A stretch of 64,000 nt of DNA, from IMG/VR virus record IMGVR_UViG_3300043598_000012, positions 1 to 64,000 of that record; one strand, 5' to 3'. The stretch is from a virus. Below are positions 10,026 to 47,749 of the stretch, one piece after another. Below the pieces are notes generated by a model that saw only the letters and a program-made list of their open reading frames with translations, was not told where the DNA came from and searched no databases. Each line of letters opens with the position of its first letter. The first letter of the stretch is position 1. The position numbers were made by a program, and so were the translations under genes.

Positions 10026-11920
10026 TGGCTCTTGGCACACGATCACTTGGCACACGATCGCTTGGAGATTCTGCTGGTGAAGTGCCTCCGGCCGTCATAA
10101 CTGTTTCTGGTTCGGCCGTGTTGGCTGGTGATTCGACGTTTACTGGGACTTACACACCACCATCGGCAGGCTCTGTTGTCTTCGCTGGCGCCTCTACGAT
10201 CTCAACTAGTGGTACTGTGGTGGTGCATGGCCGAGCTCTTCTGGATGGTCGCAGCAAGTTCATTGCCACCCACCCCTTCATCTACACTTTCGAACCAGAG
10301 ACTCAGAAGACGCAGTACCGTCTTCGCATTGTTGATAAAGAAGGGAACGGGTACGCAGATCTAGACAAGGCGACGATCAAGACCATTGGCTGGGAACTTA
10401 ACGGCATCGGCTCAGTAACATTCTCGGTTCCCACGTTAGATCCCAAGGCCTTGTTCATTAGAGTGCCTGAGCGCGAGGTGCAAGTTTGGAGGGGCGCACA
10501 GCTTATCTGGTGGGGCGTGATGGTTAGAGCTGAGGCCAACGATAATTCGGTTGATGTGCAGTGTAGCAGTTTGGAGTGGTATTTCACAAAGCGGTTCTTC
10601 GGGAAGGTAGACCGCACCAACCACCTCCAGAACCCATCCTTCGAGGAGGGAGCTTCTCACTGGGACATAGACTACCTGACCTATGCGGAGCCTACGGCCA
10701 ACATCAACTACAGCAACTTCGTTTGGTCGATCGTTGATGAACCTGTCGTACTGGGGGGCAAGGCGCTACGCCTCCAGCAGACAGGGACCATCAAGTACGG
10801 CTTCAAGGTGAGCCAGGGGTTCCTCTTCACTCAGGACCCCGCCATTGACCCAGAAGGCACGCAGTGGACCTTCGCTATCTGGGTCTACATACCCAGCGAC
10901 GATTGGGTTGCTGCAAACGAGCAGAGCAGGGGGATCTCGGTAACCCGCTACTCTACTACTCAGTCCGATACTGTGACTCCAGAAGGCGGCGGTACACCCA
11001 GGAACTTTCCCAAGGTGGTGGAGGCTGTAAATGTCTCTATCGACGATGACACCCCAATGGACACTTGGGTGCGGTTCGAGGCAGAGCTCGTTGTGCCCTT
11101 CAAGAACAACGAGCCGGAGCAGATCACCTGTCGTGTGGTCTGCCCTAACGGGACCATCTACCTCGATGCAGCCTCGTTCACTGCGGCAGAGAAGCTCGGC
11201 GCTTATAGCGAGGATCAAACTTCTATCATCAGTCGCATAATTGAGCATGCCCAGGATCCCGATTATGGGAAGTCGGATCTCAACATCAACTACAACCTGC
11301 CGCCCACTGGCATCAAGCGGACCAGGGAGTATTGGCACAGTGAGCATCAGATAATCGGCGATGCCTTGGACGAGTTTTCTACGCTTGAAAATGGCGTCGA
11401 CTTGGAAGTGGTGGTTGGTCCTAACCACCGCATTTACACTTCTTACTTCCCGCGCAAGGGCATCTATAGGCCTGACATAGTGTTGGAGCACGGCCGCAAC
11501 ATCGAGGACTTCACCGTTTACTACGACGGCATTGACACTGCTAATAGCATCGTGGTGTTGGGGGATGGTGAAGGTAGCGACCGCGAAGAGGGTGGTGCCA
11601 TGGATGCCACAGCTCTTGAGGGCGGGCTTATCTTGGAGAAGGTTTACAACGCCACCCCTGGATCACATATACAGACGCTCGACGACCAGGCAGCTAGAGG
11701 ACTTGAACGGTTCAAGTCTCCCTTTGTTGTGCCCAACATCACAACACATGAACATGCCGGTCGTCTTATTGGTGTTCTTGGTACCGGCGACATTGTTTCG
11801 GTGCGAATCAACTACGGGTTTGTTCAGGTGAACGATTTGCATCGCATACATGGGATAACACTGGACCCCAACACGGAGCGGCTGACGTACTCGATCGCGA
11901 AGCTGGAGTTCGAGCTCTGA
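10025..11920 (+). CDS. Gp37-like tail tip protein with carbohydrate-binding insert
   Basis: 631 aa. The opening (LGTRSLGTRSLGDSAG) is low-complexity. Residues about 95-200 and 390-630 look like the siphovirus Gp37-like/Tal fold (IGWELNGIGSVTFSVP, WRGAQLIWWGVM). Between them, from RTNHLQNPSFEEG onward, lies a typical CBM-type insertion. The protein should form the central hub or plug of the tail tip and contact the cell wall. Confidence 0.7.
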   Translation: MALGTRSLGTRSLGDSAGEVPPAVITVSGSAVLAGDSTFTGTYTPPSAGSVVFAGASTISTSGTVVVHGRALLDGRSKFIATHPFIYTFEPETQKTQYRLRIVDKEGNGYADLDKATIKTIGWELNGIGSVTFSVPTLDPKALFIRVPEREVQVWRGAQLIWWGVMVRAEANDNSVDVQCSSLEWYFTKRFFGKVDRTNHLQNPSFEEGASHWDIDYLTYAEPTANINYSNFVWSIVDEPVVLGGKALRLQQTGTIKYGFKVSQGFLFTQDPAIDPEGTQWTFAIWVYIPSDDWVAANEQSRGISVTRYSTTQSDTVTPEGGGTPRNFPKVVEAVNVSIDDDTPMDTWVRFEAELVVPFKNNEPEQITCRVVCPNGTIYLDAASFTAAEKLGAYSEDQTSIISRIIEHAQDPDYGKSDLNINYNLPPTGIKRTREYWHSEHQIIGDALDEFSTLENGVDLEVVVGPNHRIYTSYFPRKGIYRPDIVLEHGRNIEDFTVYYDGIDTANSIVVLGDGEGSDREEGGAMDATALEGGLILEKVYNATPGSHIQTLDDQAARGLERFKSPFVVPNITTHEHAGRLIGVLGTGDIVSVRINYGFVQVNDLHRIHGITLDPNTERLTYSIAKLEFEL

Positions 11921-12594: not shown

Positions 12595-13332
12595 ATGGCC
12601 ATCCTCGGAACAACCGCTCTGCGCCGAGCCTGGGATCCGCACTGCAAGCACAAGTGGGAGATGCGGCCTGCCTACGAGGCGCTTGATGCTTGTCTCAAGC
12701 ATTGGGGTTACAAGCCTGGAGCGGGAACGGGGGCTGCCAACTGTCGCCAGATCACCCCTCCCGCATCCGGCTGGAGCCTTCATGCCTTCTTCGCCAAGCT
12801 CGGATCCTTCAAGTTCTGGAATGGGTTCAAGATGGGGGCCATGGCCTTGGCTGTGGACATCAACCCGTCACAGAACCCTTTCGGCAAGACGCTGATCACC
12901 GATATGCACCCAGGCATGATCAGGGACATCTGTGCAGTGCGCACCAACAGCGGCCATCAGGTTTGGCAGTGGGGCGGGTTCTTCAAGCCCTACCACGATG
13001 CCATGCATGATCAGATCTGCTGTACCCCCGATCAGCTAGCCACAGGGATCGATGCCAGCACCCTGCCGGGAGCTAAGCCAGCACCAACACCTCAACCAAC
13101 GCCAGAGCAGCCAGCTCAGAACCAGGAGGACCTTGTCATGATCTTTGCTATCACCGATCTGGATCGATCGTTCGTCGTGATGCCTGATGGGCTCGTGCGT
13201 ATCACCAAGGCCGAGTTCTGGGCGCTGTCCGGTGGTGGGATGAAGGTGATCCCCATGACCGATGCGCTCTTCAAGAAGCTCTATGAGGGCAAGCGGGTGA
13301 AGTCGTTCAACGACGATCCCGTCATGGAGTAG
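12595..13332 (+). CDS. Endolysin, M15 peptidase
   Basis: 245 aa. Residues 1-140 resemble L-Ala-D-Glu or D-Ala-D-Ala peptidases of family M15: SLH (His63), AVDIN (Asp88) and the final HDAMH (His134/His138) can supply the zinc site. The gap between His63 and Asp88 is longer than in the usual SxHxxGxAxD motif. A Pro/Gln-rich linker (about 155-175) joins a C-terminal domain of about 70 aa, probably cell-wall binding. Adjacent membrane proteins support a lysis cassette. Confidence 0.75.
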   Translation: MAILGTTALRRAWDPHCKHKWEMRPAYEALDACLKHWGYKPGAGTGAANCRQITPPASGWSLHAFFAKLGSFKFWNGFKMGAMALAVDINPSQNPFGKTLITDMHPGMIRDICAVRTNSGHQVWQWGGFFKPYHDAMHDQICCTPDQLATGIDASTLPGAKPAPTPQPTPEQPAQNQEDLVMIFAITDLDRSFVVMPDGLVRITKAEFWALSGGGMKVIPMTDALFKKLYEGKRVKSFNDDPVME

Positions 13333-13372
13333 GTCAGACAACAACCTTTGATCAGGAAGCTTTGAGCCTCAG

Positions 13373-13747
13373 ATGATCCAGTCCATCCTCATTGCTATAG
13401 GCGGCTTGTTCACCGCGGTTTCTGCGGTGATGGGTTCTTACGCCCTGATTCAAGCTCGACGTACAGAGCGTCGCTCAGCCACCAAAGAAGAGACAGCCCA
13501 AGCCTTCGAGCTTCAGCAGAAGTCGATGGAGAATGTAGAGAAAGACAACGTTCGCCTCAGAGAACGTAGCGATCAGTTGCATGACCAGTTTGCTGATTTG
13601 GCGCTGAAGATCCATGATGTTGAGTACAAGCACCGAAAGTGTGAGCGTTCTTTGGAGGAGCAGAGCGCCAGACACCAAACGGAGATGGACAACTTGTTCA
13701 CGAGGCTTCGACATGCTGAGGCCAAGATATCCGAACTGGGAGGGTGA
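13373..13747 (+). CDS. One-helix membrane protein with coiled coil, holin candidate
   Basis: 124 aa. A single N-terminal membrane helix (IQSILIAIGGLFTAVSAVMG) is followed by a basic stretch and a long coiled coil. Position directly after the endolysin suggests a holin or a spanin-like accessory. The next gene starts one base after its stop. Confidence 0.55.
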   Translation: MIQSILIAIGGLFTAVSAVMGSYALIQARRTERRSATKEETAQAFELQQKSMENVEKDNVRLRERSDQLHDQFADLALKIHDVEYKHRKCERSLEEQSARHQTEMDNLFTRLRHAEAKISELGG

Positions 13748-13748
13748 G

Positions 13749-14150
13749 ATGAAGCCGCACAGGGATAGCCTCAGTTGGTGGAAGCGACCTGCTTATGTGA
13801 CAGCTTCTGCTGGGCTGGTTCTTTCGCTGGCGTTCAGTGCCTTTGTGGCCAACACCATCCTTACAAGGGATGACGTTTCAGATCTCACAACCGTGGTTGG
13901 ACAGCTGCAAGATCTGGCTGCTGCCAATGCCAAGGCCATCAAGGGGATTGAGGACAATCAGGCGGGCATCAACGAGCTCGTCGACTTCGTGCGCGACATG
14001 CAGAATCAACCGGACTCTGGTGTTGATGTCCAGCTGTTCATCGACTTGCTGTGCGCATCAGAGGATCCGGTTCGTAGAAACGCCTGCATCGAGCTTGGCT
14101 ACACGCCAGGAGAGGTCCACCGTTCGCCCAACGCAGGGCCATCGGGGTAG
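13749..14150 (+). CDS. Membrane protein, second lysis candidate
   Basis: 133 aa from ATG 13749. Basic N terminus (KPHRDSLSWWKRPAY), one membrane helix (VTASAGLVLSLAFSAFVANT), then an outside helical region with two cysteines near the end. Pairs with the preceding one-helix protein. Last gene of the late rightward operon, followed by an inverted repeat. Confidence 0.55.
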   Translation: MKPHRDSLSWWKRPAYVTASAGLVLSLAFSAFVANTILTRDDVSDLTTVVGQLQDLAAANAKAIKGIEDNQAGINELVDFVRDMQNQPDSGVDVQLFIDLLCASEDPVRRNACIELGYTPGEVHRSPNAGPSG

Positions 14151-14224
14151 CGAGGTCCCGCCAAGCCTCCTTCAGAGCTCCTTGGCTGCGGCTCTGTCGG
14201 TTCCTCCGGCAAGGCGGGACCTCG
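14151..14224 (+). terminator. Long inverted repeat at convergent operon ends
   Basis: A perfect 12-bp stem pairs 14151-14162 (CGAGGTCCCGCC) with 14213-14224, enclosing 50 bases. It begins one base after the lysis operon stop and ends seven bases before the stop of the minus-strand HTH gene. A two-sided terminator is likely. No U-run follows, so a structured RNA or factor-dependent stop is also possible. Confidence 0.55.
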
Positions 14225-14230
14225 CTCCAC

Positions 14231-14449
14231 CTACCTCCTACGTAGGACCTCTGTGATCTGTGAGGGGCTCCAGAGCGCCCAGCCATGACCGGTGTGGGAG
14301 GCTGGCTCCGGGACCTTACCGTTGCTCCTCCAGCGGCTGAAGGTGCGCATACTGATCCCCAGTGTGGAGGCGAACTCTCCCGAAGTGGCGTAGCTGATGT
14401 GTTCACCCTTCTCCTTGTCACGGTTGGCTGACCTGCCGGGAGTTGCCAC
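14231..14449 (-). CDS. MerR/excisionase-like helix-turn-helix protein
   Basis: 72 aa on the minus strand, GTG start with AAGGAG five bases away. GEFASTLGISMRTFSRWRSNGKVP is a winged HTH of the MerR/Xis type (residues about 23-46). It might be a repressor, excisionase or minor regulator. It is second in a two-gene operon facing away from the early genes; the upstream gene ends three bases before it. Confidence 0.65.
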   Translation of the reverse strand: MATPGRSANRDKEKGEHISYATSGEFASTLGISMRTFSRWRSNGKVPEPASHTGHGWALWSPSQITEVLRRR

Positions 14450-14451
14450 AA

Positions 14452-14853
14452 CTACTCCTTGAGGGTGATGGTGACGTAGGGAGTCCGTGGGACTATCTTG
14501 CTGTTGCGATCGATTACCCGCTTGGGGATCGTGCCCTTCTGCACCTCTGTCAGCAGAGCGGTGAAGTCGAGCGACACCGTGGTGCGGGTTATCCTCGCGT
14601 AGAGCTCGGGATCCTTGCGCTTGACAGCTCGGAGGATGGCGTCCTCGTCGTACTCAGTGCCTTCGGGGGTGGCTAGGCTGACTCGTACGAGGTCTTCTTC
14701 TACTCGTTGTTCGATGGCCTTCGTTCCGCTGGAGACCATGGCCTTGGTTACTTCGTCTCGGGCGCGCTTCGCCTTTGCAGCGATGGCATCAGCTTGAAGT
14801 TGGAGGTGCTTGGCCAGGCGCGCCTTCTTGGCGATGAACTCTTGTGAGGGCAT
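14452..14853 (-). CDS. Helical protein of unknown function
   Basis: 133 aa, minus strand. Residues 1-50 form a charged coiled coil, the C-terminal 60 are mixed (PELYARITRTTVSLDFTALL). The start ATG has TAGAAT six bases upstream, so its mRNA is probably leaderless. No recognised family; co-transcribed with the HTH gene. Confidence 0.6.
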   Translation of the reverse strand: MPSQEFIAKKARLAKHLQLQADAIAAKAKRARDEVTKAMVSSGTKAIEQRVEEDLVRVSLATPEGTEYDEDAILRAVKRKDPELYARITRTTVSLDFTALLTEVQKGTIPKRVIDRNSKIVPRTPYVTITLKE

Positions 14854-14886
14854 ACCCTGATTCTACGGCGGACGTATACTCTAGGC
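14854..14886. promoter_or_regulatory. Divergent back-to-back promoters, both leaderless
   Basis: Only 33 bp separate the two start codons. The leftward -10 (TAGAAT, reading 14865-14860) and the rightward -10 (TATACT, 14875-14880) each end six bases from an ATG. Each -35 region would fall in or next to the other gene's start, so the two promoters should interfere. Confidence 0.6.
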
Positions 14887-15123
14887 ATGACCCAGGGATC
14901 CACTCGCAACAGCCCCACCCGCATGGCCAATCGCATGGTGAAGGAGGCGCACACCAGGGACAAGCCCAAGAGGCGCCGAGCCAATCGCAACACCGAGCTT
15001 CAGCGCTGGGATCTTGAAGGCATGAGGAAGGGTGCTCTCACCGAGCTCTGCCTCGCACGGGGCATTCCCACCAATCCCAAGCTCCGCAAGAAGGATCTCA
15101 TCGAGATGCTAGTGGGCCGCTGA
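14887..15123 (+). CDS. Basic SAP/Rho-N-like small protein
   Basis: 78 aa. The first half is Arg/Lys-rich. The second, LEGMRKGALTELCLARGIP then KLRKKDLIEMLVG, matches the helix-extended-helix of SAP/Rho-N domains that bind nucleic acid. TATACT ends six bases before ATG, so no leader is expected. First gene of the rightward early operon. Confidence 0.6.
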   Translation: MTQGSTRNSPTRMANRMVKEAHTRDKPKRRRANRNTELQRWDLEGMRKGALTELCLARGIPTNPKLRKKDLIEMLVGR

Positions 15124-15254
15124 TGCTGGTGTTCTTCATCATCGTAGGAGGGGTAGCCCTATTGCTCTTCGTTCTGATGACGGCACTCCTTCCCAAGAAC
15201 CAGACCTACGAGTTCGAGGTCAGCAAGCGGAAGCGACGTCGTGGCACTTCATAG
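15123..15254 (+). CDS. 43-aa single-helix membrane protein
   Basis: Begins at ATG 15123, sharing a base with the previous stop (TGATG). MLVFFIIVGGVALLLFVLMT is a membrane helix, followed by a basic cytoplasmic tail (KRKRRR). Overlaps the next gene by 14 bases. Coding is supported by tight overlap and hydrophobic pattern; role unknown. Confidence 0.55.
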   Translation: MLVFFIIVGGVALLLFVLMTALLPKNQTYEFEVSKRKRRRGTS

Positions 15255-15396
15255 CGCTGAGGTGATAGAGGCAGCAGCAGTGGTCAAGTGCCTCGACTGC
15301 CGGATGAAGGACGAGGGTGCCGTTTTCATCAGCGAAGAAACGGGTGAGCCTGAGTGTCCCAACTGTTGCAGTGACCGGCTGGCTGTCTCCTCGTAG
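15241..15396 (+). CDS. 51-aa zinc-ribbon protein
   Basis: GTG 15241 is the longest start; GTG 15262 and 15280 are alternatives. KCLDC and CPNCC form two CxxC pairs 18-20 residues apart, a minimal zinc ribbon. Lies between the small membrane protein and the helicase. Confidence 0.5.
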   Translation: MALHSAEVIEAAAVVKCLDCRMKDEGAVFISEETGEPECPNCCSDRLAVSS

Positions 15397-15433
15397 CATC
15401 ACCTGAGCCAGCTCCCACCAACAGAGGACACAG

Positions 15434-16753
15434 GTGCCCACACTCGACGAGACTGCCATCGCCTACGCTTGCACTCGCAAGAACGGGTTCAACAAGCTGA
15501 GGCGTAGCGGAATCACCGAGGAGCACTTTGTAGACGACTTCTCACCCGTCTGGCGGTTCCTCACCAAGACCAAGTCACAGCATGATGCTGTGCCGAGCCC
15601 TGACCTCGTGCGACAGCGGTTCCCGGATCTGGACTTCCCCATGGTCCGGAACACGGACATGCCTATGGTCGTCAACCAGATCAAGCAGCGACACAAGTAC
15701 ATCCAGCTGCTCCGGCTTCTGAATGACACGGCCATCGGGGCCAACTCGTGGGAGACGGTAGACGAGGACATCCAGTCGCTTCAGGGGTCACTCAACAGCA
15801 TCGCTTTCCGGAGCGCCACGGGCACCCACCTAATCGACCTCTTCACCCCGGACGCTCAGAGGAAGGTCATCGCCGAGCTCCACCGTCGACGTAGCGGTCG
15901 AGTCACTGGCATGCCCACTGGATTGCGGAGGTTGGACGCGGTCACAGGTGGGCTCCAGCGACAGAAGATGTCAGTGGTTATTGGCAGGACGGGCGGAGGC
16001 AAGAGCTGGCTGAACCTCTTCTTCGTGGCCAACGCCATCAAGAGCGGGCACACCTTCATCCTCTACCCGTTGGAGATGACCCTCTACGACACAGCCTTCC
16101 GGCTCTACACGATCTTCAGCCACCAGATGTTCGGTGCGGATAAGGCCATCAGTAACCTTGACCTGATGCATGGCAAGGTGACTAAGGCCAAGATCGTGCG
16201 GCTCATGCACTTGCTGGAGGACCGCTTCGCTGGGCGGCTGCTCGTTGCTGACGTGGGGTCTCTTAGCGACCCCTACACCATCGAGAGAATCGACGCAGAG
16301 GTCGAGCTCCATCGCCCGGACGGGTTCTGGGTAGACTACATCACCCTGATGAAGGCGCCAGGAGGTAAGGGGATAGATGACTGGGGAGCCATCCGGGTCC
16401 TCTCGCAGGGCATCAAGGGCATCTCGATGCGACGCAACACGATGGGGGGATGCAGTGCTCAGGTCAACCGAGAGGCTCTTCGGCAGAAGGTGTTCCTTCC
16501 TCGACTTGAGCACATCTCCTACGGCGACTCCATTGGTCAGGACTCTGATCTTGTTGTCAGCATCAATCGTCCTGCGAACGACCCACATCTCTACTACGCT
16601 CTTGTTAAGCATCGTGGGGGACCAGAATTCGGTAAGACAAGAGTCAAGTGGGACGTCGACAGCGGCGACATCGGAGAGACCGCCCACCAAGACCCCGATG
16701 GCAGTGATGAGGGAGGCGTCGATGGCGTCCAAGTCGAGACGAGCATTAGCTAA
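15434..16753 (+). CDS. DnaB-like replicative helicase
   Basis: 439 aa from GTG. RecA-type core: Walker A GRTGGGKS at residues 184-191, Walker B-like DGFWVDYI near 295, and Gln/Arg motifs downstream (GGCSAQVNREAL). The N-terminal 160 residues would be the primase-interacting collar. Slightly shorter than bacterial DnaB. With the primase, DnaE, SSB candidate and RecA it gives the phage most of its own replisome. Confidence 0.85.
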   Translation: MPTLDETAIAYACTRKNGFNKLRRSGITEEHFVDDFSPVWRFLTKTKSQHDAVPSPDLVRQRFPDLDFPMVRNTDMPMVVNQIKQRHKYIQLLRLLNDTAIGANSWETVDEDIQSLQGSLNSIAFRSATGTHLIDLFTPDAQRKVIAELHRRRSGRVTGMPTGLRRLDAVTGGLQRQKMSVVIGRTGGGKSWLNLFFVANAIKSGHTFILYPLEMTLYDTAFRLYTIFSHQMFGADKAISNLDLMHGKVTKAKIVRLMHLLEDRFAGRLLVADVGSLSDPYTIERIDAEVELHRPDGFWVDYITLMKAPGGKGIDDWGAIRVLSQGIKGISMRRNTMGGCSAQVNREALRQKVFLPRLEHISYGDSIGQDSDLVVSINRPANDPHLYYALVKHRGGPEFGKTRVKWDVDSGDIGETAHQDPDGSDEGGVDGVQVETSIS

Positions 16754-17027
16754 GAAGGAGATCGAGGAGCACTTCGCCAAGTTGCGTTATCACTACGGCT
16801 CCGAGGGTGCCTCCTGGCTGATGCTCATGCTCAACGACTACGTCGACGAGCACTCGCTTACTGTGGCGCAGGCGCTGTTCGCGGTCGACCTGTGGGCTCG
16901 TACCTCCCAGCTCATCTACGACGAGCAGGGGTTCGAACGTCTGAGGGAGTGCCAGCAGCTGGCCATGGCTTCTAGCCACCCGCATGCCGAGCTCCGTCAG
17001 ATGTACTTGGCGATGGTGTCGGGCTGA
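16722..17027 (+). CDS. Helical protein of unknown function
   Basis: 101 aa. ATG 16722 has GGGAGG five bases upstream and lies inside the helicase 3' end (32-base overlap). All-helical, no cysteine motif. Translationally coupled to helicase and primase genes, so a replication accessory is a reasonable guess only. Confidence 0.6.
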   Translation: MASKSRRALAKKEIEEHFAKLRYHYGSEGASWLMLMLNDYVDEHSLTVAQALFAVDLWARTSQLIYDEQGFERLRECQQLAMASSHPHAELRQMYLAMVSG

Positions 17028-17164
17028 TGCGTGAATCAGAGTTCGTGCGCAGGTTGGACGAAGTCATCAGACAGATTGCAGTGGATATCGGCTGTAAGAC
17101 TGGAGACATGCCTCCCGACCTCAATCCGTTCCCTCGTTTGAACTGGCGATACCGTGCACGCTGA
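17027..17164 (+). CDS. 45-aa protein of unknown function
   Basis: ATG overlaps the previous stop by one base; the next gene starts inside it. MRESEFVRRLDEVIRQIAVD is helical, the end is Pro/Arg-rich. Coding support is the unbroken overlap chain between the helicase and primase. Confidence 0.45.
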   Translation: MRESEFVRRLDEVIRQIAVDIGCKTGDMPPDLNPFPRLNWRYRAR

Positions 17165-17336
17165 CAACCCACACCTGTCGATAGATGACCTGGAGCGGAT
17201 GCGAGAGAAGTATGTAAAGGCTGGTAGGACAGCCTGGTTTGAGGGCCTCTACCCAGACGAGTTTGAAGAGGCGGAGCGTTTGTTGAACGAGTTGCCCGCC
17301 AACCACCCTCTTAGCAAGATCACACGCAGATGCTAG
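17154..17336 (+). CDS. 60-aa helical protein
   Basis: GTG start 11 bases inside the preceding gene, stop seven bases inside the primase gene. Charged helices (DDLERMREKYVKAG, DEFEEAERLLNEL). Unknown function, part of the helicase-primase operon. Confidence 0.5.
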   Translation: MHADNPHLSIDDLERMREKYVKAGRTAWFEGLYPDEFEEAERLLNELPANHPLSKITRRC

Positions 17337-18340
17337 CCGAAGAACTCGGCATAACAAGCGTGGAAGATGTATTAGAACGACGGCTTGGGCTAGACGGTCT
17401 ACGACAGGGTCGTGAGTACCAAATTTATTGCCCGAACCCCAATCACGAGGACCACAATCTGGGCAGCTGCTCCGTCAACCTCACTACGGGGCTCTGGAAG
17501 TGTTGGGCATGCGGAGCGCACGGAGACCTCATTCGGCTTGTCTCGCTCTCCCAGGGCATCGCTACCCTGGAGGCCAAGCGAGCTCTACAGCCGAACACGA
17601 GGGAGGCTCTAGCTGCCTCGACTAGCTACAAGTTGAGTCAGGCGCTGGCTTCTGCTAGGCCGAGCAAGCATGCGCGCGCGTTGGGCGGACCCTACGAGAG
17701 CGGTCCTCTGACGGAGCTCCGCAACAGAGGGTTCTCCGCAGAGACGCTCAAGCGGTGGGGGGTGCGTTGGGTGGCGGAAGAGCAGCTCGCCAAGAAGGAT
17801 CCCAAGCCGGACGAGCTTCCGACCTACACTATCCGTCAGTGCTACGCCATCCCTGTAGAGGACGAGCACAGCCAGCTCCTCTCTTGGTGTTATCGGCGGA
17901 CAGGTGATTCGCCCAACTGGCAGCCACGGTACCTCTACTCCACCCACGCTGACATCGGGGCTATGTGGTTCGGGCTCCGCCACCACGCCAACGAGCGAGC
18001 CGTCTACGTGGTCGAGGGGGCTCTCGACGCCATGTGGCTGGACCAGGCGGGGCTGCCAGCTCTGGCGATGCTCGGCGCCGGTCTCAGCGACCAGAAGGTG
18101 CGCAGGTTGCTCCGCTATCGAGAGGTCACGGTGTTCGCCGATCGGGACAACGGCGGGCTTCAAGCTCTTCTCACCCTAGGTCGAGTGCTGGGAGGCAACC
18201 TACGTCTAAGGGTAGCCCGGTACCCAAGCTGGTACTCCAAGGACGGCAAGGTTGACCCGCAGAACGTTCACCCAGTAGATCTCGAGATCGCGGCGCACCG
18301 AGCTCTACCGTGGCAAGTCTTCCTACGAGCCTTCGCTTGA
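17330..18340 (+). CDS. DnaG-like primase
   Basis: 336 aa. A CHC2 zinc finger is visible (Cys34, His39, Cys58, Cys61), then a Toprim core with VVEGALDAM near residue 225-235 and FADRDNGG near 270. This is shorter than bacterial DnaG (about 600 aa) because the C-terminal helicase-binding domain is lacking. Makes RNA primers for the fork together with the DnaB-like helicase three genes upstream. Confidence 0.85.
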   Translation: MLAEELGITSVEDVLERRLGLDGLRQGREYQIYCPNPNHEDHNLGSCSVNLTTGLWKCWACGAHGDLIRLVSLSQGIATLEAKRALQPNTREALAASTSYKLSQALASARPSKHARALGGPYESGPLTELRNRGFSAETLKRWGVRWVAEEQLAKKDPKPDELPTYTIRQCYAIPVEDEHSQLLSWCYRRTGDSPNWQPRYLYSTHADIGAMWFGLRHHANERAVYVVEGALDAMWLDQAGLPALAMLGAGLSDQKVRRLLRYREVTVFADRDNGGLQALLTLGRVLGGNLRLRVARYPSWYSKDGKVDPQNVHPVDLEIAAHRALPWQVFLRAFA

Positions 18341-18401
18341 GGTAGCAGATTTTTTCTACGAATCACGTGCCTTCTGTTGGCGTCTGTGCTAAGATGCTCG
18401 T
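18341..18401 (+). promoter_or_regulatory. Conserved promoter cassette 1
   Basis: GGTAG 18341, GTGCCT 18367-18372, 17-bp spacer, TAAGAT 18390-18395, six bases, ATG 18402. GGTAG follows the primase stop directly. This copy is the most diverged in the middle T-run (TTTTTTCTA rather than TTTCC). Confidence 0.7.
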
Positions 18402-18704
18402 ATGACCACCACTAACGAGTGCCTCCACGGAGGCTACCACCAGCCAGGGCAGTGCCCGGAGGCCAATGTCTTCGAGCGAGAGGCCTTCTACGACGAGCTC
18501 TACGAGCGGCAGGTGATGTCGGTCCTCGACCATGCCGAGACCATCGACGATTCCCGCACGCTCGCCGACCTGGACTTCGAGCCCCGCACCGTTGAGATCT
18601 GTCCAGACTGTGGCTCTGGTCACACCACTGAGTCTCGCATCTGGCGTGATGGCGAGCCGACCAACTTCTGCTGCACCGAATGCGGAGCGAGGTGGACGCT
18701 GTGA
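18402..18704 (+). CDS. Zinc-ribbon protein
   Basis: 100 aa, expected from a leaderless message of cassette 1. Four cysteines in CPDCGSG and CCTECGARW at residues about 67-97 form a zinc ribbon; two more are at the N terminus (CLHGGYHQPGQC). Opens with MTTTN like other cassette genes. Overlaps next gene by four bases. Confidence 0.6.
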   Translation: MTTTNECLHGGYHQPGQCPEANVFEREAFYDELYERQVMSVLDHAETIDDSRTLADLDFEPRTVEICPDCGSGHTTESRIWRDGEPTNFCCTECGARWTL

Positions 18705-40497: not shown

Positions 40498-40956
40498 GTG
40501 GAGCTCAAGACGTGTAGCAAATGCAAAGAGAAGAAGCCAATCAGCGAGTTCCACCTCGTGCGCAAAAGCGGTACACAACGGTTCTCTCGATGCAAGCCGT
40601 GCAGGCTACAGGACCAACGCGATTGGTATTCTAGGTTGTCTTCAGAGGAGCGGCGAGCTCGGCAAAAGGCGCCCGAAAGAAACCGAGACCTGCACCTTCG
40701 TCGCACTTATGGAATCACGCTTGCAGAGTTCAATGCCATGTTGCGCCACCAACGAGGACGCTGTGCTATCTGCCGCACCAAGGAGCCAGGTGGCAGGTCT
40801 CGTCACAAGCACGGTTGGTTCGTTGACCATTGTCACAAGACCGGTAAAGTGCGAGGTCTCTTGTGCAGTGACTGCAATTTGCGCCTACTTCCTGGAGCTA
40901 AGGACAGCGTGAAGATCCTTCGAGCGGCCGTCGCGTATCTGGAGCGGACATCGTGA
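40498..40956 (+). CDS. Endonuclease VII-type HNH nuclease (homing-type)
   Basis: 152 aa from GTG 40498. N-terminal CSKCKEKK...CKPCR ribbon, YGITLAEFNAMLRHQRGRCAI module and VDHCHKTGKVRGLLCSDCN active site. TATGCT ends six bases before GTG. Closely similar to the minus-strand HNH gene at 48.4-48.9 kb, so one is probably a copy of the other. Confidence 0.8.
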   Translation: MELKTCSKCKEKKPISEFHLVRKSGTQRFSRCKPCRLQDQRDWYSRLSSEERRARQKAPERNRDLHLRRTYGITLAEFNAMLRHQRGRCAICRTKEPGGRSRHKHGWFVDHCHKTGKVRGLLCSDCNLRLLPGAKDSVKILRAAVAYLERTS

Positions 40957-42749
40957 GGATTTGGCTCGCAAAGAAGGATGAGGCACGGGAGCGGCACGTA
41001 GTTGTCGACCTGAACGCTACGGAGGAGAGCGAGTTCATCTTCGTAGTGCGGCGGTTCGTGCTGCCCGAGGGCGTACAGCCTTGGCGAGAGCGGAGTCCCG
41101 CAGGTACCAAGGTTCGCTATCGCTTTGGGATGAGGTGGCTGGACCGACTCATCATGACCTTCCCAGTAGCGGAGCGGTCAGCAGCCATCGATGCCAAGCT
41201 CGCAGCGGACAGCCAGGCACACCTACATCGTCTGAAGAACCCTCCCACGTTCTCGGCGCCCAGCTTCCGAGAGCATGCTCGCACAGGGCGCCACAAGGAC
41301 GGCACACCCTTCACGCTCTACCCACATCAGCTCGTGAGCATCTCCAACGGCTTGCGGGATCCCCGACACATGGTCAACCTGGGTATGGGGTTGGGCAAGA
41401 CAGCCATCGGCTGGGCCATGGCCTGCAAGCTTCGGCCCAAGCGCATGGCCATCATCACCACCTACGGCGGTAAGGCGGTGTGGGAAGACGAGATGGCAGA
41501 GTGGACTCACATCCGCCCAGACCGGCTCCAGGTGGTTGACGGCACAGCCGCTAAGCGCCGAGACCAGATCGGTCAGTTCATGGAGGCTGACCCCAACGAG
41601 GCACGCATCCTGGCCTTCAACTGGGATCTCCTCCGTCTACACCCGGAGATGGCAGACGTCGTGTTCGACTTCATGGTGGTTGACGAGTTCCACCGAGCCA
41701 AGAACCACGAGGCAGCGGTGACGGAGGCTTTCCTCAAGCTGCGAGCGCACCGAGAATTGCTGCTTTCGGGGACTCCCATGATCAACCGTACCGAGGAGCT
41801 CTGGACTCCCCTGCACCGTGTGTGTAGGCGCCGAGACAGCCTCCGGCCGACGGACACCAACAGCAAGTATCCCTCCTCGTGGCTGTTCAACAAAACGCTG
41901 CGCATCAAGTTCGGGGGCAGTGATAGCCTGCTGGGTCGCAACCCCGACTTCATGGAGATGATCAAGCAGGACCTCGACGATCACTCCACTCGTTTCCGTC
42001 GCGATCAGGTGGATCAGGACCTGCCAGAAGTTATTCCGTTTACGGTGAAGGTGCGACTCACCTCCGAGCAGCGGAAACTCTATAACAAGATCCGTGATGA
42101 GTTCAAACTGGAATTGGAGGATGGCCGCACTCACACGGTAAGCGATGCACGCGCCCTGATCACTCGATTGAAGCAGGCCTGTTGGAGCCCCGAGCTCTAC
42201 GGAGGATCGCAAAAGAGCGCCAAGGTCGATGAGCTCCGAGGGATCGTGCGAGACCTTGTAGACGCTGGGGAGAAGGCCATCCTCTTCTCCCAGTGGAGCA
42301 AGGCCACTCGCATCCTTCAGCGTGAGTTCGGACACTACGGGATCGCCTACGTCGATGGCGGAATCAATGCAGCTAAACGGAAGTTGGAAGCGAAGCGGTT
42401 CAACACGGACCCCGATTGCAAGCTCTACATCGGCACTATCGGGGCTAACCGAGAGTCGATTACCCTGGGTGCAGCAACCAATGTTGTCTTTACTGACAAG
42501 GAATGGAGTGACGAGTATAACGACCAGGCTCGGGATCGCTCTGCATCCGGCGGTCTGCGAGGACTCGGCGTCAGCCACGTTAACCTCATCGAGCTGCTAG
42601 CCGAGGACACCGTGGACTTCGACATCGAAGCTGTGCTTGGACGCAAGAGCAATGAGTTCGACGTGGTGGTCGAGAGCGACGGAGGCAATCGGGCCAAGAA
42701 GAAGAGACGGCACCCGCTTACTTTTGACGAATTGATGGCGGCCATCTAG
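40953..42749 (+). CDS. SNF2-type superfamily 2 helicase
   Basis: 598 aa from GTG, overlapping the HNH stop. Motif I MGLGKT near 147-152, II VVDEFHRA near 242, III LLSGTP near 270, and helicase-C motifs ILFSQW and NDQARDRS. Unlike typical DEAD-box proteins this is SNF2-like and could remodel DNA-protein complexes or process forks. Ends the replication/repair region. Confidence 0.85.
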   Translation: MRIWLAKKDEARERHVVVDLNATEESEFIFVVRRFVLPEGVQPWRERSPAGTKVRYRFGMRWLDRLIMTFPVAERSAAIDAKLAADSQAHLHRLKNPPTFSAPSFREHARTGRHKDGTPFTLYPHQLVSISNGLRDPRHMVNLGMGLGKTAIGWAMACKLRPKRMAIITTYGGKAVWEDEMAEWTHIRPDRLQVVDGTAAKRRDQIGQFMEADPNEARILAFNWDLLRLHPEMADVVFDFMVVDEFHRAKNHEAAVTEAFLKLRAHRELLLSGTPMINRTEELWTPLHRVCRRRDSLRPTDTNSKYPSSWLFNKTLRIKFGGSDSLLGRNPDFMEMIKQDLDDHSTRFRRDQVDQDLPEVIPFTVKVRLTSEQRKLYNKIRDEFKLELEDGRTHTVSDARALITRLKQACWSPELYGGSQKSAKVDELRGIVRDLVDAGEKAILFSQWSKATRILQREFGHYGIAYVDGGINAAKRKLEAKRFNTDPDCKLYIGTIGANRESITLGAATNVVFTDKEWSDEYNDQARDRSASGGLRGLGVSHVNLIELLAEDTVDFDIEAVLGRKSNEFDVVVESDGGNRAKKKRRHPLTFDELMAAI

Positions 42750-42763
42750 CGTACCATGTCTCG

Positions 42764-42875
42764 GAGAGCCGCAGGTGTTTGCAACACTTCAACCCCATGG
42801 GGTAGATGAGCGACGGAGCCGTGATCCACTTGACCTCTGAGTGGTGCAGGCAGTAGAGGGGCGCCTGCGGCTCTC
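42764..42875 (+). terminator. Long inverted repeat with internal hairpins
   Basis: A 12-bp stem pairs 42764-42775 (GAGAGCCGCAGG) with 42864-42875, extended by a wobble and a G-C pair. The 88-base loop contains smaller inverted repeats (TGTTTGCAACA, ACCCCATGGGGT). It follows the helicase stop and precedes a leaderless promoter, so it may stop transcription or be a structured RNA. Confidence 0.5.
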
Positions 42876-42900
42876 GCTCCCAACTTGGCGAGCATTGGTG

Positions 42901-42912
42901 TAAGATGTGGCT
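42901..42912 (+). promoter_or_regulatory. Leaderless-type -10 box
   Basis: TAAGAT at 42901-42906 ends six bases before ATG 42913. The GGTAG and GTGCGA boxes of the full cassette are absent. Confidence 0.5.
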
Positions 42913-43209
42913 ATGACCACCGAAAAGGTTCAGCTGCTCGTTCTTCTCACCACCTCTGGGCCGTTGCCCATGGGCTACGCCGACAGTGACAGGGGCAAGG
43001 TGAGCCTGGGGCTCTCAGCGGCTCGCTACCAGCAAGCCAGGCTGGCGCACGGCCACCGCATCGTCGAGCTCTCTCAGCGCCGAGCTTCCTGGTGGATGTG
43101 CCACCAGATGTACGCAGAGCGGCAGATGATGATTGGGCATGCCTTGGCACGGCTCGAAGGCCGCACCTCCATGGGCTACGACGAGTGGCGGTGGGGTCGC
43201 TTCTCTTGA
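42913..43209 (+). CDS. Small protein of unknown function
   Basis: 98 aa. Opens with MTTEK. Helical with many Met, Arg and Trp residues (ASWWMCHQMYAERQMM). Stop TGA is followed directly by the GGTAG of cassette 2. Confidence 0.5.
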   Translation: MTTEKVQLLVLLTTSGPLPMGYADSDRGKVSLGLSAARYQQARLAHGHRIVELSQRRASWWMCHQMYAERQMMIGHALARLEGRTSMGYDEWRWGRFS

Positions 43210-43270
43210 GGTAGAGGTGTTCTTTCCAACAAGACGTGCGAAGTTGCCAACCGTGAGGCAAGATGTTCCT
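43210..43270 (+). promoter_or_regulatory. Conserved promoter cassette 2
   Basis: GGTAG 43210-43214, TTTCC 43223-43227, GTGCGA 43236-43241, 17 bp, CAAGAT 43259-43264, six bases, ATG 43271. Confidence 0.75.
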
Positions 43271-43681
43271 ATGACCACCACACCTAAGACCGCTGCCGAG
43301 TGGATGCGCCACTACGAACATCTGCCGCTGAAGGATCTGAAGATCCACGCTGGACAGAGCATGGGGCTCAGCACCGCCGGAGGCAGGGAGGCGATCCTGG
43401 ACCGCATCAGGGCTCTTCAGATCGAGGTGTATGGCCTTCCGACTCTTCCGATCAAAGACAAGATCTGGGACGACACGCTCTCCGAGTTCGAGAGCAGCTA
43501 CGAGGCTGTAGGCCATGCGGCCTTCTGGATGTCCTTCACCGGCTCAACCTACGACCACAGCGGCTACTATGAGCTGCGCACTCAACTGGAGGATCTTATC
43601 GACGAGGGCGAGCCTGAAGATGAGAATTGCCAGGATTTCGAGGCGTCACGTTGGAACGTCTACCAGGACTGTGCGTTCTGA
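43271..43681 (+). CDS. Protein of unknown function
   Basis: 136 aa, opening MTTTPKT. A SAP-like stretch (LPLKDLKIHAGQSMGLSTAGG then EAILDRIRAL) precedes an acidic helical region. Leaderless start from cassette 2. First of a long overlapping operon reaching 45.97 kb. Confidence 0.55.
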   Translation: MTTTPKTAAEWMRHYEHLPLKDLKIHAGQSMGLSTAGGREAILDRIRALQIEVYGLPTLPIKDKIWDDTLSEFESSYEAVGHAAFWMSFTGSTYDHSGYYELRTQLEDLIDEGEPEDENCQDFEASRWNVYQDCAF

Positions 43682-43878
43682 TGGCCCGCTCCAAGAGGAC
43701 CCTGTTCCTCGACAACCGCAACCGCTGGATCATGTCGGAGCCGACAGACAGCGGGTTCCTCCACACTCGACTCGGCACCACCAACACCTTCCAGACGCGA
43801 GAGCTCGCCGAGAAGGAGATGGTCCGAGTGGTTCGTCGCAGGCAGCGTGCTGCCGTCAAGCAAAGGAAGTCGGCATGA
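43681..43878 (+). CDS. 65-aa basic protein
   Basis: ATG shares a base with the previous stop. Arg/Lys-rich at both ends (ARSKRTLFLDNRNR, RVVRRRQRAAVKQRK). Unknown function. Confidence 0.5.
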   Translation: MARSKRTLFLDNRNRWIMSEPTDSGFLHTRLGTTNTFQTRELAEKEMVRVVRRRQRAAVKQRKSA

Positions 43879-44219
43879 CCACCTTCATCACAAAGTTCGA
43901 GAACGACTCGATCCACGCTGTGACGCGTCACACATGGCACGTCACAGGTGTTGAGTATCACCGCAACGGCAGCGGAGGGGAGGGGTTCTATCTCGTCGAG
44001 TTCCACCGTGCGGTCATGGCTTCAGAAGACCATCGGCCCAGAGCAGCAAAGCTCTCCAAGGACAGCATCGTCCGCTACTTGAGCCTTCGAGCGGTAGTCT
44101 TCCGGACGGATTGCCATTGTGCTGTGTTCAACCCAGCCAAGGCAGACGACTGTTACCGTGGTGACAATTTCGAGCGTGGCCTCCGTGAGGTTATCAAGGT
44201 CTACGAGAAGTCGCTCTGA
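43875..44219 (+). CDS. Protein of unknown function
   Basis: 114 aa, ATGA overlap. Mixed alpha/beta with CHCAVFNPAKADDC near the end; no clear zinc site. Unknown role. Confidence 0.5.
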   Translation: MTTFITKFENDSIHAVTRHTWHVTGVEYHRNGSGGEGFYLVEFHRAVMASEDHRPRAAKLSKDSIVRYLSLRAVVFRTDCHCAVFNPAKADDCYRGDNFERGLREVIKVYEKSL

Positions 44220-44497
44220 TGGGCACCCACATCAACGTCGGCCCCCTTCGCTTCCCCAAGCAGGGAGAATGGCTTGGCAAGCGGGTCAACGTCTGCTTCC
44301 ACTTCAAGACCGAGGATCTCTTCCCTGGCACCATCGTGCGGGAGGACAGCGAGGAGCCTGGGCGCCTGATCATTGCGCTCGACGACGGGCGCTACGTCAT
44401 AAGCACGGAGTGCATGTATAGCTTCAACAACGTGCCAACCAACGAGGGTAACACGCCACCGTTCCCCGGCTTCGAGCATGTGATGGGAGGTGCGTGA
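44219..44497 (+). CDS. Beta-barrel-like protein
   Basis: 92 aa. RVNVCFHFKTEDLFPGTIVRED and RLIIALDDGRYV suggest a small barrel as in other KOW-like proteins of this window. Starts at the last base of the previous stop. Confidence 0.5.
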   Translation: MGTHINVGPLRFPKQGEWLGKRVNVCFHFKTEDLFPGTIVREDSEEPGRLIIALDDGRYVISTECMYSFNNVPTNEGNTPPFPGFEHVMGGA

Positions 44498-44763
44498 TGT
44501 TCAAGGGCTACCTCACGAGGATGGGAACAGTCACCCAGGACACCAAGTCAGCCGTAGATCCCGGGCTGGCTCGCAAGGGTGTGCGCTACTCTACCCGTAC
44601 TGGTGAGGACATCATCGGCGACGTGCACTTGATCCGCTCCTCACCAGCCTTGTGGGATGTCTTTTCACGGAACCCCTATAGGTTTGCCAGGGTGCAGGCT
44701 CCTAACCGGCGCTTCGCCATTGAGGCTGCCTTGGAAGAGGTGAACAGCAATGCCGAAGGGTGA
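44497..44763 (+). CDS. Protein of unknown function
   Basis: 88 aa from ATG 44497; GTG 44494 is one codon earlier. No recognised motif. Overlaps the next gene by 14 bases. Confidence 0.5.
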   Translation: MFKGYLTRMGTVTQDTKSAVDPGLARKGVRYSTRTGEDIIGDVHLIRSSPALWDVFSRNPYRFARVQAPNRRFAIEAALEEVNSNAEG

Positions 44764-45172
44764 TTGCTTCTCACTTGCACTATCGCTCGTGGCGGGGTAC
44801 GTGCATGGTGACCCCGTCAACAATCCCGACGATCAGGCTCCGATGCCTGGCGGCAAGGTCGTCCACGGGCTCCCCATTGGTCGCGGCCCAGAGAACATGG
44901 GCAAGCGGTACTGGCATGCATGGGTAGAGGTTGTCATCAACGGGGTGGTCACCGTCATGGACTACTCCAACGACCAGCGGATCACTATGCCCAGGGACGA
45001 GTACTACCGCTTCGGTAACATACAGCAGGTGTGGCGCTACAACGCTCACCAAGCCCGAGCTCAGTTCAAGAAGCAGCAGCGTTGTGGCCCTTGGGTCAAG
45101 GGCTGGGAGTCCATGAGCGAGGCCAGCGAGCACCGTCTGGCCGCTGAGCAAGCCGTCGCGGAGGGGTCGTGA
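44750..45172 (+). CDS. Papain/transglutaminase-like protein candidate
   Basis: 140 aa. Cys6 in GDCFSLALSL, His56 in RYWHAWVEV and Asp71 in VMDYSN are spaced like the Cys-His-Asp triad of papain-fold and transglutaminase-like enzymes. Length is near the minimal fold. Could cleave or crosslink host proteins; no activity is demonstrated. Confidence 0.5.
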   Translation: MPKGDCFSLALSLVAGYVHGDPVNNPDDQAPMPGGKVVHGLPIGRGPENMGKRYWHAWVEVVINGVVTVMDYSNDQRITMPRDEYYRFGNIQQVWRYNAHQARAQFKKQQRCGPWVKGWESMSEASEHRLAAEQAVAEGS

Positions 45173-45807
45173 AGAAGAACATCGAGCGCGAGGAGCATCC
45201 TGCCTTTGCTATGGCAGAGGTCAACAGGGTGCACGCCACACCGGGCGCCGCTCTGTTCGACAGTGAGCTCCAGCACAGTGAGTACGTGGTGCTCCGCATC
45301 AAGCGAGCCATGCGTAGGCGAGAACTGAAGCGTGATTGGATCACCGACGCCGAGCAGCTCGTTGAGGTTTCCATGAGCATGGCCCAGTGGGGTGCCTTAG
45401 TGTCTTCGTTTGGCACCAACGGAGTGCCTGTGACCCTCAACTGGCTGTCGGGCGAAGGTGATGTAGAGCGGCTTTCCTACGAACCACGCATGGCCGAGTC
45501 GCTCAAGGAGATCGAAGGTGCAGCCACAGAGCTGGTGCATGACATTAGGTGGGCAGCGGACGAGCTCCGGGAGGCCTTCGACAACAAGGCCAGTCGTCGC
45601 GAGGTTGAGGATAAGCTGAGTCACCTGGAGGCCATGATCAACAACGCCCGTGCCGACGCTTGCTTCACGGCCACTCAGTTCTCCAAGCACGTTGAGAACA
45701 CCGTCACCAAGGCTCGTGCGGACATCGAAGCCATGGCCGCATCTGCCCAGCAGCGAGGGATCGAGGCGGGTAGCCTGCCGCTGATGGAGCTTCCTAGTGC
45801 CGACTGA
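45169..45807 (+). CDS. Coiled-coil protein of unknown function
   Basis: 212 aa from GTG. N-terminal folded part includes WITDAEQLVEVSMSMAQWG, C-terminal 100 residues are a long coiled coil (ELREAFDNKASRREVEDKL). Known to me as a recurring actinophage protein without function. Confidence 0.55.
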   Translation: MKKNIEREEHPAFAMAEVNRVHATPGAALFDSELQHSEYVVLRIKRAMRRRELKRDWITDAEQLVEVSMSMAQWGALVSSFGTNGVPVTLNWLSGEGDVERLSYEPRMAESLKEIEGAATELVHDIRWAADELREAFDNKASRREVEDKLSHLEAMINNARADACFTATQFSKHVENTVTKARADIEAMAASAQQRGIEAGSLPLMELPSAD

Positions 45808-45967
45808 GAAGCGATGTCGATGCGGGCATCTGATGCGCTGGCACAGGAAGCAGTGGCCAGACCAATGCACGATCTGTGAGCGTCGCTACGGTCCGACTAG
45901 CGCATGCCTACCACCTAAGGGGTGTTCGAACAAGACATCCGCACATAGCACAAAGGCAGGTGTATAA
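45797..45967 (+). CDS. 56-aa zinc-binding protein
   Basis: GTG 45797 starts inside the previous gene. CRCGH, CTIC and later cysteines make a zinc site. Its stop TAA (45965-45967) lies inside the -10 box of the next gene. Confidence 0.5.
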   Translation: MPTEKRCRCGHLMRWHRKQWPDQCTICERRYGPTSACLPPKGCSNKTSAHSTKAGV

Positions 45968-45974
45968 TCATTGC
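45963..45974 (+). promoter_or_regulatory. Consensus -10 box, leaderless
   Basis: A perfect TATAAT at 45963-45968 ends six bases before GTG 45975 and overlaps the stop codon of the preceding gene. Confidence 0.6.
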
Positions 45975-46298
45975 GTGGCAACGAGAAAGTCAGGAGCAGC
46001 CAACCCAGGAGGAACAGAACGAACAAGGAGGCCAGCAGCCAACCTCGTCCAGCTAGCACTCGGGCGAAGCGTCCGGGTGTGGGGCGAAGCATCGATCACC
46101 GTCGCAGTGACGGACGATCCACCGCAGTTCGTCAAGGTGACGTTCGGGCACGAGCGGCTCGCAAGCAACGACAGCGAGCAGGAGATCCTCAAGACCGAAC
46201 GTCAGATTCACGCAACCAACAGCAAGGTCGTCGAGCGGAGAGCAAGGGAGCTCCGGCAGCTCGTGCATCGGACGATGGACGAGGGCGACTACGGCTGA
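45975..46298 (+). CDS. Protein of unknown function
   Basis: 107 aa from GTG. Basic N terminus, then VRVWGEASITVAVTDDPP and a charged helix to EGDYG. The following 230 bases continue to look coding but one frame back (see next entry). Confidence 0.55.
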   Translation: MATRKSGAANPGGTERTRRPAANLVQLALGRSVRVWGEASITVAVTDDPPQFVKVTFGHERLASNDSEQEILKTERQIHATNSKVVERRARELRQLVHRTMDEGDYG

Positions 46299-46534
46299 AG
46301 CTCGCACACAAGGATGTTCGCTCCGGTCAGTTCGTCGACCGGCTCGGACAGAAGCTGAGGCAGGGAGCCAAGGTTTGGCACTATCCCTACCGAGGTGAGA
46401 CACGGCATCGAGCCGTAGTGGCGAACGACGGCATCCTGGGACGGATGCTTGCAATCCAACTGGAGGGGGACCCCTTTCCGGTCAACGTAGACCACCGCAG
46501 GGTGGAACTCATGAAGGAGAGAGGACAACAGCAA
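46299..46534 (+). other. Coding-like sequence without a start codon
   Basis: In the frame one base behind the preceding gene and in frame with the following one, the translation reads like protein (KLAHKDVRSGQFVDRLGQ, then GAKVWHYPYRGETRHRAV, a KOW-like strand pair). No ATG, GTG or TTG precedes it; the first is GTG 46418. It could be the shifted end of the previous gene, an N-terminal domain with a CTG start (46295), or a damaged gene. Confidence 0.4.
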
Positions 46535-47122
46535 ATGGCAACGACAGCAGCAGCCAACAAGCCTGCGAACGCCCGAGAGGCGCGAGCCATGGCGAAGGAG
46601 CTGGGCATCGAGGGTTGGGAGGACTTGGGCCGAGAGGACCTGCTGTCCGCCATCGCCACTGCTCAGAAGGGAAGTTCAGCAGCAGCTCCGACCAAGGCTC
46701 CAGCAGCCAAGAAGGCTTCAGGGGCCAAGAAGGCTCCGGCGAAGAAGGCAGCCACCAAGCGAGCTCCGGCCAAGGCCAAGGCTCCAACCAAGAAGGCCAG
46801 TGGTGGTCGGGCCAACCCCGATCCCGACGATCCGATCCCGTTCCGTCCGGGCACCAACCTGTACGAGATCGCCAAGGCGCTCCTCAAGGGCGGCAAGCGG
46901 TCGGTCCTCGTCAAGCACCTGAAGCCCAGGCTCAGCTTCAACCCCCGCAAGCAGAGCGCCAAGGACTTCGACACGGATGCCGAGATCGACCGTCGGCTGA
47001 AGGTCATCGGCTACATCCTCAAGAACCAGCACGGCTGGACCTACGCCTCCAACGGCCGCGGTCCCGACGCCCTGATCCAGGCGACGCCTCCGGGCACTGA
47101 GAACAAGGTCGCTGCCAAGTAG
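46535..47122 (+). CDS. Histone-like Lys/Ala/Pro-rich DNA-binding protein
   Basis: 195 aa from ATG 46535 after AAGGAGAGAGG; ATG 46511 is in frame. A HeH-like start (NAREARAMAKELGIEGW) leads into about 60 residues of PAKKA-type repeats like those of actinobacterial HU tails. A folded C-terminal domain follows (FRPGTNLYEIAKALLKGG ... HGWTYASNG). Likely binds DNA non-specifically. Confidence 0.55.
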   Translation: MATTAAANKPANAREARAMAKELGIEGWEDLGREDLLSAIATAQKGSSAAAPTKAPAAKKASGAKKAPAKKAATKRAPAKAKAPTKKASGGRANPDPDDPIPFRPGTNLYEIAKALLKGGKRSVLVKHLKPRLSFNPRKQSAKDFDTDAEIDRRLKVIGYILKNQHGWTYASNGRGPDALIQATPPGTENKVAAK

Positions 47123-47684: not shown

Positions 47685-47749
47685 GGTAGAAGGGTCTTTC
47701 CAGAAACTTTCAGAAATCACGTGCGTTCTGGTTACGGCTGGGGTATAGT
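47685..47749 (+). promoter_or_regulatory. Conserved promoter cassette 3, 10-bp insertion
   Basis: GGTAG 47685-47689 and GTGCGT 47721-47726 are 36 bp apart instead of the usual 26; the extra bases partly duplicate TTTCAGAAA. Then 17 bp and TATAGT 47744-47749. Unlike the other cassettes it drives a normal leader of about 45 bases with a ribosome site. Confidence 0.75.

Follow-up and report, generated by a model that had tools for sequence, protein, structure and literature searches.

Divergent leaderless promoters have been predicted before in phages. In Cluster O mycobacteriophages such as Corndog, the divergent promoters PL1 and PR2 are each predicted to initiate transcription at the start codon's first base, as stated in a passage of PMC4351075. 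Leaderless promoters of Mycobacterium tuberculosis, as described in part of PMC3898074, have a TANNNT -10 element and no conserved -35, and the start codon is where transcription begins. In Escherichia coli, polymerase uses bidirectional promoters in one orientation at a time, and their start-to-start distance is most commonly 18 bp, 10 and 23 bp being frequent as well; five such promoters that were tested showed no basal competition, but one side, when strongly activated, could repress the other (passages of PMC12825309).

The locus studied here is a 33-bp spacer at 14854-14886 of a 64,000-base stretch of viral DNA, hereafter the window. It is like Corndog PL1/PR2 in that two divergent, predicted leaderless promoters share one phage intergenic region, and differs in that the Corndog promoters are SigA-like, were scored for both -35 and -10 boxes and lie in AT-rich intergenic regions (same passages of PMC4351075), whereas two -10-only elements within 33 bp are predicted here. 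The M. tuberculosis leaderless starts were mapped experimentally (PMC3898074, in part), whereas those of the window are predicted from spacing, in a phage. With E. coli bidirectional promoters the spacer shares its back-to-back promoter elements, but the predicted start-to-start distance of 34 bp (14887 versus 14853) is outside the common distances of 18, 10 and 23 bp, small variations allowed (PMC12825309, in part). The reading that we favour, and consider fairly probable, is that of a compact divergent early promoter region in a probably lytic tailed phage, where a pair of leftward genes would be a stripped-down leftward early operon.

Gene layout and the 33-bp spacer

The window corresponds to bases 1-64000 of a virus record with a total length of 80,880 bases, and 127 bp are identical at the two termini of this record. 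Such ends make the assembly look complete. Gene calling was done with a custom script, not a published caller, and gave 156 calls in the record, 11 of them on the minus strand. The large terminase (72635-74332), the portal and the major head protein are all located within 72.6-79.2 kb, and a minor tail protein is found at 10082-11920. A peptidase M15 match at 12595-13332 was below cut-off; from their position and size, we take the remaining genes upstream of 14.15 kb to be tail and lysis genes. At 14887 begins a long rightward run composed of a 78-aa gene (14887-15123, plus strand), a DnaB-like replicative helicase that anchors the replication operon (15434-16753, plus strand), a primase, a polymerase III alpha and a RecA/UvsX-like recombinase. 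The start of the 78-aa gene was called at 14923 or 14887, of which 14887 was adopted. Its product has a weak, below cut-off resemblance to Rho_N, and NCBIfam gave no match above cut-off.

The leftward pair sits between the structural-side genes (<14.15 kb) and this replication run. It consists of a gene for a 133-aa protein (14452-14853, minus strand, ATG start) followed by a gene for a 72-aa helix-turn-helix (HTH) protein (14231-14449, minus strand, GTG start). The preliminary description had placed a minus-strand pair opposite the rightward operon across 33 bp, and the coordinates of the two open reading frames, as well as that of the ATG at 14887, proved correct. The pair is not the sole credible minus-strand unit, as an endonuclease VII-like gene (48432-48776, minus strand, E 1.8e-25) is also present within the long rightward run.

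A -10-like hexamer was found upstream of each of the two divergent ATG codons, TATACT at 14875-14880 on the plus strand and TAGAAT at 14860-14865 on the minus strand, ending 6 nt before the ATG at 14887 and the ATG at 14853, respectively. A TANNNT positioned for a transcript starting at the start codon is therefore present at both ATGs, and the two overlapping leaderless promoters proposed earlier held up as predictions. A two-hexamer sigma-70-type scan of 13000-17500 detected 0 promoters (shuffles, mean 1.2). We predict that the 33-bp spacer contains two divergent leaderless promoters, whose activity is presumed from the sequence.

The prediction was set against the other gene starts of the genome, restricted to gene calls scoring at least 6, weaker calls being excluded. 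TANNNT at exactly 6 nt occurred at 9 of the 55 starts preceded by a gap of 30 bp or more, and at 1 of the 79 starts with a smaller gap. At the other distances between 2 and 13 nt, the same 55 starts gave 4 cases at 4 nt and 0 elsewhere; three of these 4 correspond to CATAGT at 6 nt, and the last one is the 14887 site. When the upstream stretches were shuffled (5,000 runs), the mean was 0.42 and the maximum 4, to be compared with the 9 observed. All 9 class members were at ATG starts (n=43), and none at GTG starts (n=12). Over the plus strand of the whole record, TANNNT-N6-ATG was found 11 times, which is unremarkable alone (dinucleotide shuffles: mean 5.3, maximum 13, n=20), and the TARRNT variant 6 times (shuffles: mean 1.4, maximum 4, n=20). 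Ten of the 11 TANNNT-N6-ATG sites were intergenic, with an open frame beginning at their ATG, and 9 of these were called starts. Given that the raw count is within that of the shuffles, and that enrichment is seen at gap-preceded starts, the signal is one of spacing and of location at gene starts. We concluded that a leaderless -10 class is real in this genome and includes both spacer sites. The presence of a set of such promoters in the genome lends credibility to the prediction at the 33-bp spacer. The spacer would offer a simple test system for polymerase competition in the absence of -35 boxes and leader RNA. In four long relatives (G001, G002, G003 and G005, see below), the exact-6-nt class was scarce (1/45, 1/37, 2/42 and 1/44 starts, respectively, with 3 more at 7 nt in G005), so that it appears to be particular to this phage and not characteristic of its group.

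With these promoters, host RNA polymerase would produce leaderless mRNAs in both directions from two back-to-back -10-type promoters. The rightward one would start the replication operon (78-aa gene, helicase, primase, polymerase), and the leftward one a two-gene operon, in which the 133-aa protein is followed by the HTH protein, whose translation would use a Shine-Dalgarno of its own. Simultaneous occupancy of both promoters by polymerase would be impossible, so that the two may interfere with each other to some extent; the default expectation is early expression of both operons.

Two side observations concern the leaderless class. A further minus-strand call, 57195-57551, has a TACTAT 6 nt upstream of an ATG at 57533 and is possibly a second leftward leaderless gene; its product had no Pfam match at E 0.01. 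Separately, an intergenic promoter cassette of ~75 bp is repeated in the genome, with the consensus aGGTAGaaG.GTTcTTTCCAGAA..cacGTGCG...GAGG[CT]AnrrT-N6-ATGACC and a near-palindromic element that precedes the start by ~39-52 nt. Six strong copies (18333-18407, 43202-43276, 51021-51095, 52803-52877, 53833-53907 and 55129-55201) are located at predicted leaderless starts, with E values of 1.9e-20 to 4.3e-15 for a model built from these same six, and two weaker copies are found at 49355-49416 and 47681-47749 (E 5.7e-9 and 8.6e-8). The cassette is absent from 14854-14886, and its best score in the four relatives was only E 2.5. It is reminiscent of the ESAS repeats of Cluster K mycobacteriophages, as these are described in part of PMC11373665.

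The leftward pair and its products

At its far end, the leftward pair meets a set of rightward genes ending at 14150. Between them lies a strong hairpin (14144-14231, 24-nt arms, 83% complementary), with -54.9 kcal/mol and a z of -5.4 (-4.3 for the other strand). It has no T-tract, and was unlisted by a terminator scan that requires a T-run. The hairpin is a probable bidirectional terminator, although the missing T-tract counts against this; it would end both the leftward operon and the incoming rightward one.

The 133-aa protein of the window itself matched no Pfam family at E values of 1 or lower and had nothing above cut-off in NCBIfam. Among the 4 members of its alignment, 2 gave a weak match to Sipho_Gp157 (PF05565, best E 0.0062) and 1 a weak match to the Mu Gam-like phrog_253 (E 0.027). 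The predicted structure has a long N-terminal helix followed by a mixed C-terminal part, with a mean pLDDT of 65. Gp157 appeared once among the structural hits of this model, at rank 8; a comparison with the PDB was uninformative, its matches being mostly to the long helix. The protein is possibly Gp157/Gam-like: it resembles the Sipho_Gp157 and Mu Gam-like proteins in having a long helix and then a mixed part, but differs from them in that the window protein itself has no profile match.

The GTG of the HTH gene lies 2 bp from the stop of the 133-aa gene, and a Shine-Dalgarno-like AAGGAG (14455-14460, minus strand) is found 5 nt before this GTG, within the 3' end of the 133-aa gene. A winged HTH fold is confidently predicted, with a mean pLDDT of 88-92 per ten residues over residues 21-70. 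The nearest structures were the RdfS excisionase (Z 6.9, 62 residues aligned, rmsd 4.1) and CadR (Z 6.7, 51 aligned, rmsd 1.6), followed by BldC (6ama, Z 5.7) and the Pukovnik Xis (Z 5.4), all matches having a Z below 8, in the middling range. NCBIfam gave nothing above cut-off. PHROG family phrog_66, "excisionase and transcriptional regulator", was matched by 4/4 members of the HTH alignment (E 1.8e-5 for the window protein), and this match together with the predicted fold, which is like that of the MerR, Xis and BldC winged HTH proteins, backs the MerR/Xis-like label given in the preliminary description. Membership of the MerR family itself was not supported: MerR_1 of Pfam scored 18.4 bits, below its cut-off of 21.6, and the window protein differs from that family in that its 72 aa stop after the DNA-binding domain, with no C-terminal dimerisation/effector part. 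With excisionases (Xis/RDF) it shares the predicted winged HTH fold, but no cognate integrase was found in its own record or in the relatives.

The protein could alternatively act in DNA packaging or as an architectural element, small-terminase-like or as an Xis-like bender, with no role in transcription and with promoters that are constitutive. Such a role would fit the matches of 2 of the 4 alignment members to phrog_57, terminase small subunit (best E 9.6e-7; E 0.0048 for the window protein), the presence of packaging HTH domains among the structural matches (7lw0, Z 5.7; 7lwr, Z 5.6), and the SNF2 helicase gene that shares a block with the HTH gene in relatives. However, the HTH gene does not adjoin the large terminase, and the excisionase/regulator matches are the more widespread (4/4 for phrog_66), so we hold this alternative to be unlikely. 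In the favoured reading, the HTH protein would be a small DNA-binding protein of MerR/Xis fold belonging to a DNA-metabolism block of the phage, and not a prophage repressor; the presence of real regulators among its matches counts against this reading.

Regulation by the HTH protein is possible. In an autoregulated timing switch, it would bind the spacer and shut one or both promoters as it accumulates, thereby setting how long the replication operon is driven. The predicted winged HTH fold near MerR domains, BldC and excisionases speaks for this alternative, as do the phrog_66 matches of all 4 alignment members and the proximity of the gene, which a single gene separates from the spacer. Moreover, the two -10 elements show pseudo-symmetry: an imperfect dyad extends over both, and its 14-bp arms reach a p of 0.047. 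On the other side, shorter arms of 6, 8, 10 and 12 bp showed no excess over chance (p 0.50, 0.36, 0.23 and 0.12), arms of 8 and 10 bp were also at chance when both -10 hexamers were held fixed (p 0.49 and 0.39), and the window contains no second copy of the dyad with up to 3 mismatches. The 17-bp core of the dyad was found in two viral contigs, in which tblastn at 1e-4 detected nothing resembling the called proteins of the record. Operator-like symmetry in the spacer is thus borderline at best, and the dyad search found no convincing operator for the HTH protein there. A further argument against the timing switch came from the relatives.

Relatives, proposed rearrangement and lifestyle

Relatives were not immediately apparent. 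Single-protein searches of viral_contigs with the 133-aa, HTH and helicase proteins gave no close relatives, and neither a search with the DNA of 13000-16000 nor one with the 133-aa protein retrieved any phage records. A search with the helicase alignment (A1) gave 76 loci, of which whole records were taken only for three, the long relatives G001, G002 and G003, at 47-52% helicase identity. The capsid alignment (A5) gave 9 loci: three within these known records, one in a fourth long relative, G005 (capsid protein, 59% identity), and five on short contigs (6-19 kb) that had neither an HTH nor a helicase match. The HTH alignment gave 7 loci, three of them known relatives and the others L105-L108 (33% identity over 42 residues, 54% over 24). 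A scan of the 76 helicase loci with 12 window proteins added a weak match to the 133-aa protein in L041 (E 0.006).

HTH homologues were present in 4/4 long relatives. In all four, a block of genes was found in the order SNF2 helicase, 133-like, HTH and basic protein, with other genes interspersed. In 3 of the 4 (G002, G003 and G005), this block is oriented against the helicase operon, as the pair is in the window; in G001 it is co-directional with the helicase. Recognition of the 133-like gene, the counterpart of the window's 133-aa gene downstream of the SNF2 helicase gene, was indirect: tblastn with the window protein found it in G003 only (E 0.002), a genome search with the same protein found none in G001-G003 even at E 10, and the G005 gene was recognised via G001 and G002. 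Conversely, a profile made from the 133-like genes of three relatives placed 14455-14862 (minus strand) first in the window's own record, at E 4.7e-6, the next hit being at 0.57. The link therefore rests on this profile and on gene position.

The other block markers of the window genome are in the rightward run, on the plus strand, within 40953-47122: SNF2 at 40953-42749, the counterpart of a small G001 gene at 46077-46298, and the basic protein at 46535-47122. No 133-like or HTH counterpart was found among these block genes at 41-47 kb, and only the 133-aa/HTH pair of the block is leftward. The simplest reading is that the block was relocated and that the pair stayed, as a remnant of a larger leftward block, at its ancestral place and strand, the reverse being possible. 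The comparison suggests how an early operon may be dismantled with one gene pair kept in place.

The end of the block was also compared. The best 100-nt folds at the junction between block and structural run were -51.9 kcal/mol in G002 and -49.7 kcal/mol in G003; in G005, where the far end of the block meets a short rightward gene run and not structural genes, it was -50.7 kcal/mol (all three without shuffle control). By eye, the sequences of these junction hairpins are unrelated and, like the hairpin of the window, they lack a T-tract.

At the other end, the divergent spacers matching that of the window measure 461, 632 and 533 bp in G002, G003 and G005, compared to 33 bp here. The 33-bp promoter overlap is not conserved in the relatives, and with an HTH gene lying mid-block and spacers of 461-632 bp in 3 of the 4, a dedicated 33-bp operator is not ancestral. 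The lost overlap also counts against the favoured reading, as do the scarcity of the 6-nt class in the relatives, the co-directional block of G001 and the different far end of the block in G005. The mid-block gene and the long spacers weigh against the timing switch, which we regard as not very likely; as it overlaps in part with the favoured reading, the likelihoods given to the two need not sum to one. A bolder proposal is that the pair was pulled out of the block and acquired its own promoter back-to-back with the replication promoter, so that polymerase competition and HTH binding together make a minimal timer. We give this only a slim chance. If true, the timer would be built of -10 elements and start codons only, with no leader RNA on either side.

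The preliminary description had likened the layout to a lysogeny or timing switch, while noting that the window held no integrase. This last point was confirmed over the whole record, in which neither the tyrosine integrase (PF00589) nor the serine recombinase (PF00239) family had a match at E 0.001. Nor did ParB_N (PF02195), the ParA-type AAA_31 (PF13614) or HTH_3 (PF01381), the sole repressor family searched record-wide, at the same threshold. The two recombinase families, ParB_N and AAA_31 were also missing from G001, G002, G003 and G005, and for HTH_3 the relatives gave two sub-cut-off matches, one of which was in the HTH gene of G001. Likewise, no capsid or portal relative was detected in genomes representing 84,980 species of bacteria and archaea by a short-peptide-pattern search, a type of search that can miss relatives.

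A cI/Cro-type lysogeny or immunity switch, with the leftward gene as prophage repressor, would account for the divergent layout at the point where structural and replication genes meet, for the small HTH protein and for the predicted leaderless transcripts. Against it stand the missing recombinase, partition and HTH_3 matches in all 80,880 bases, the lack of a relative in those bacterial and archaeal genomes, and the position of the relatives' HTH gene inside a block with the SNF2 helicase. Since the five E. coli bidirectional promoters that were tested did not compete at basal level, geometry alone does not make a switch. The lysogeny switch was thus not supported, and we consider it highly improbable. 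The phage is probably lytic; the absence of an integrase is compatible with a plasmid-like or chronic persistence.

Finally, two observations were made on other genes. A 342-aa protein encoded at 51795-52823, which had no Pfam match at E 0.01, contains a DHDPSG stretch reminiscent of Toprim/Spo11-type proteins; its G005 counterpart (49%) is in the leftward block shared with SNF2 and HTH. In G003, the SNF2 gene (L100:2473-5301, minus strand) is a 942-aa ORF, compared to ~590-610 aa in relatives, and contains an intein-like insertion, with a LAGLIDADG_3 match that passes the cut-off (E 4.4e-5) and a Hom_end_hint match that does not (E 0.0031).
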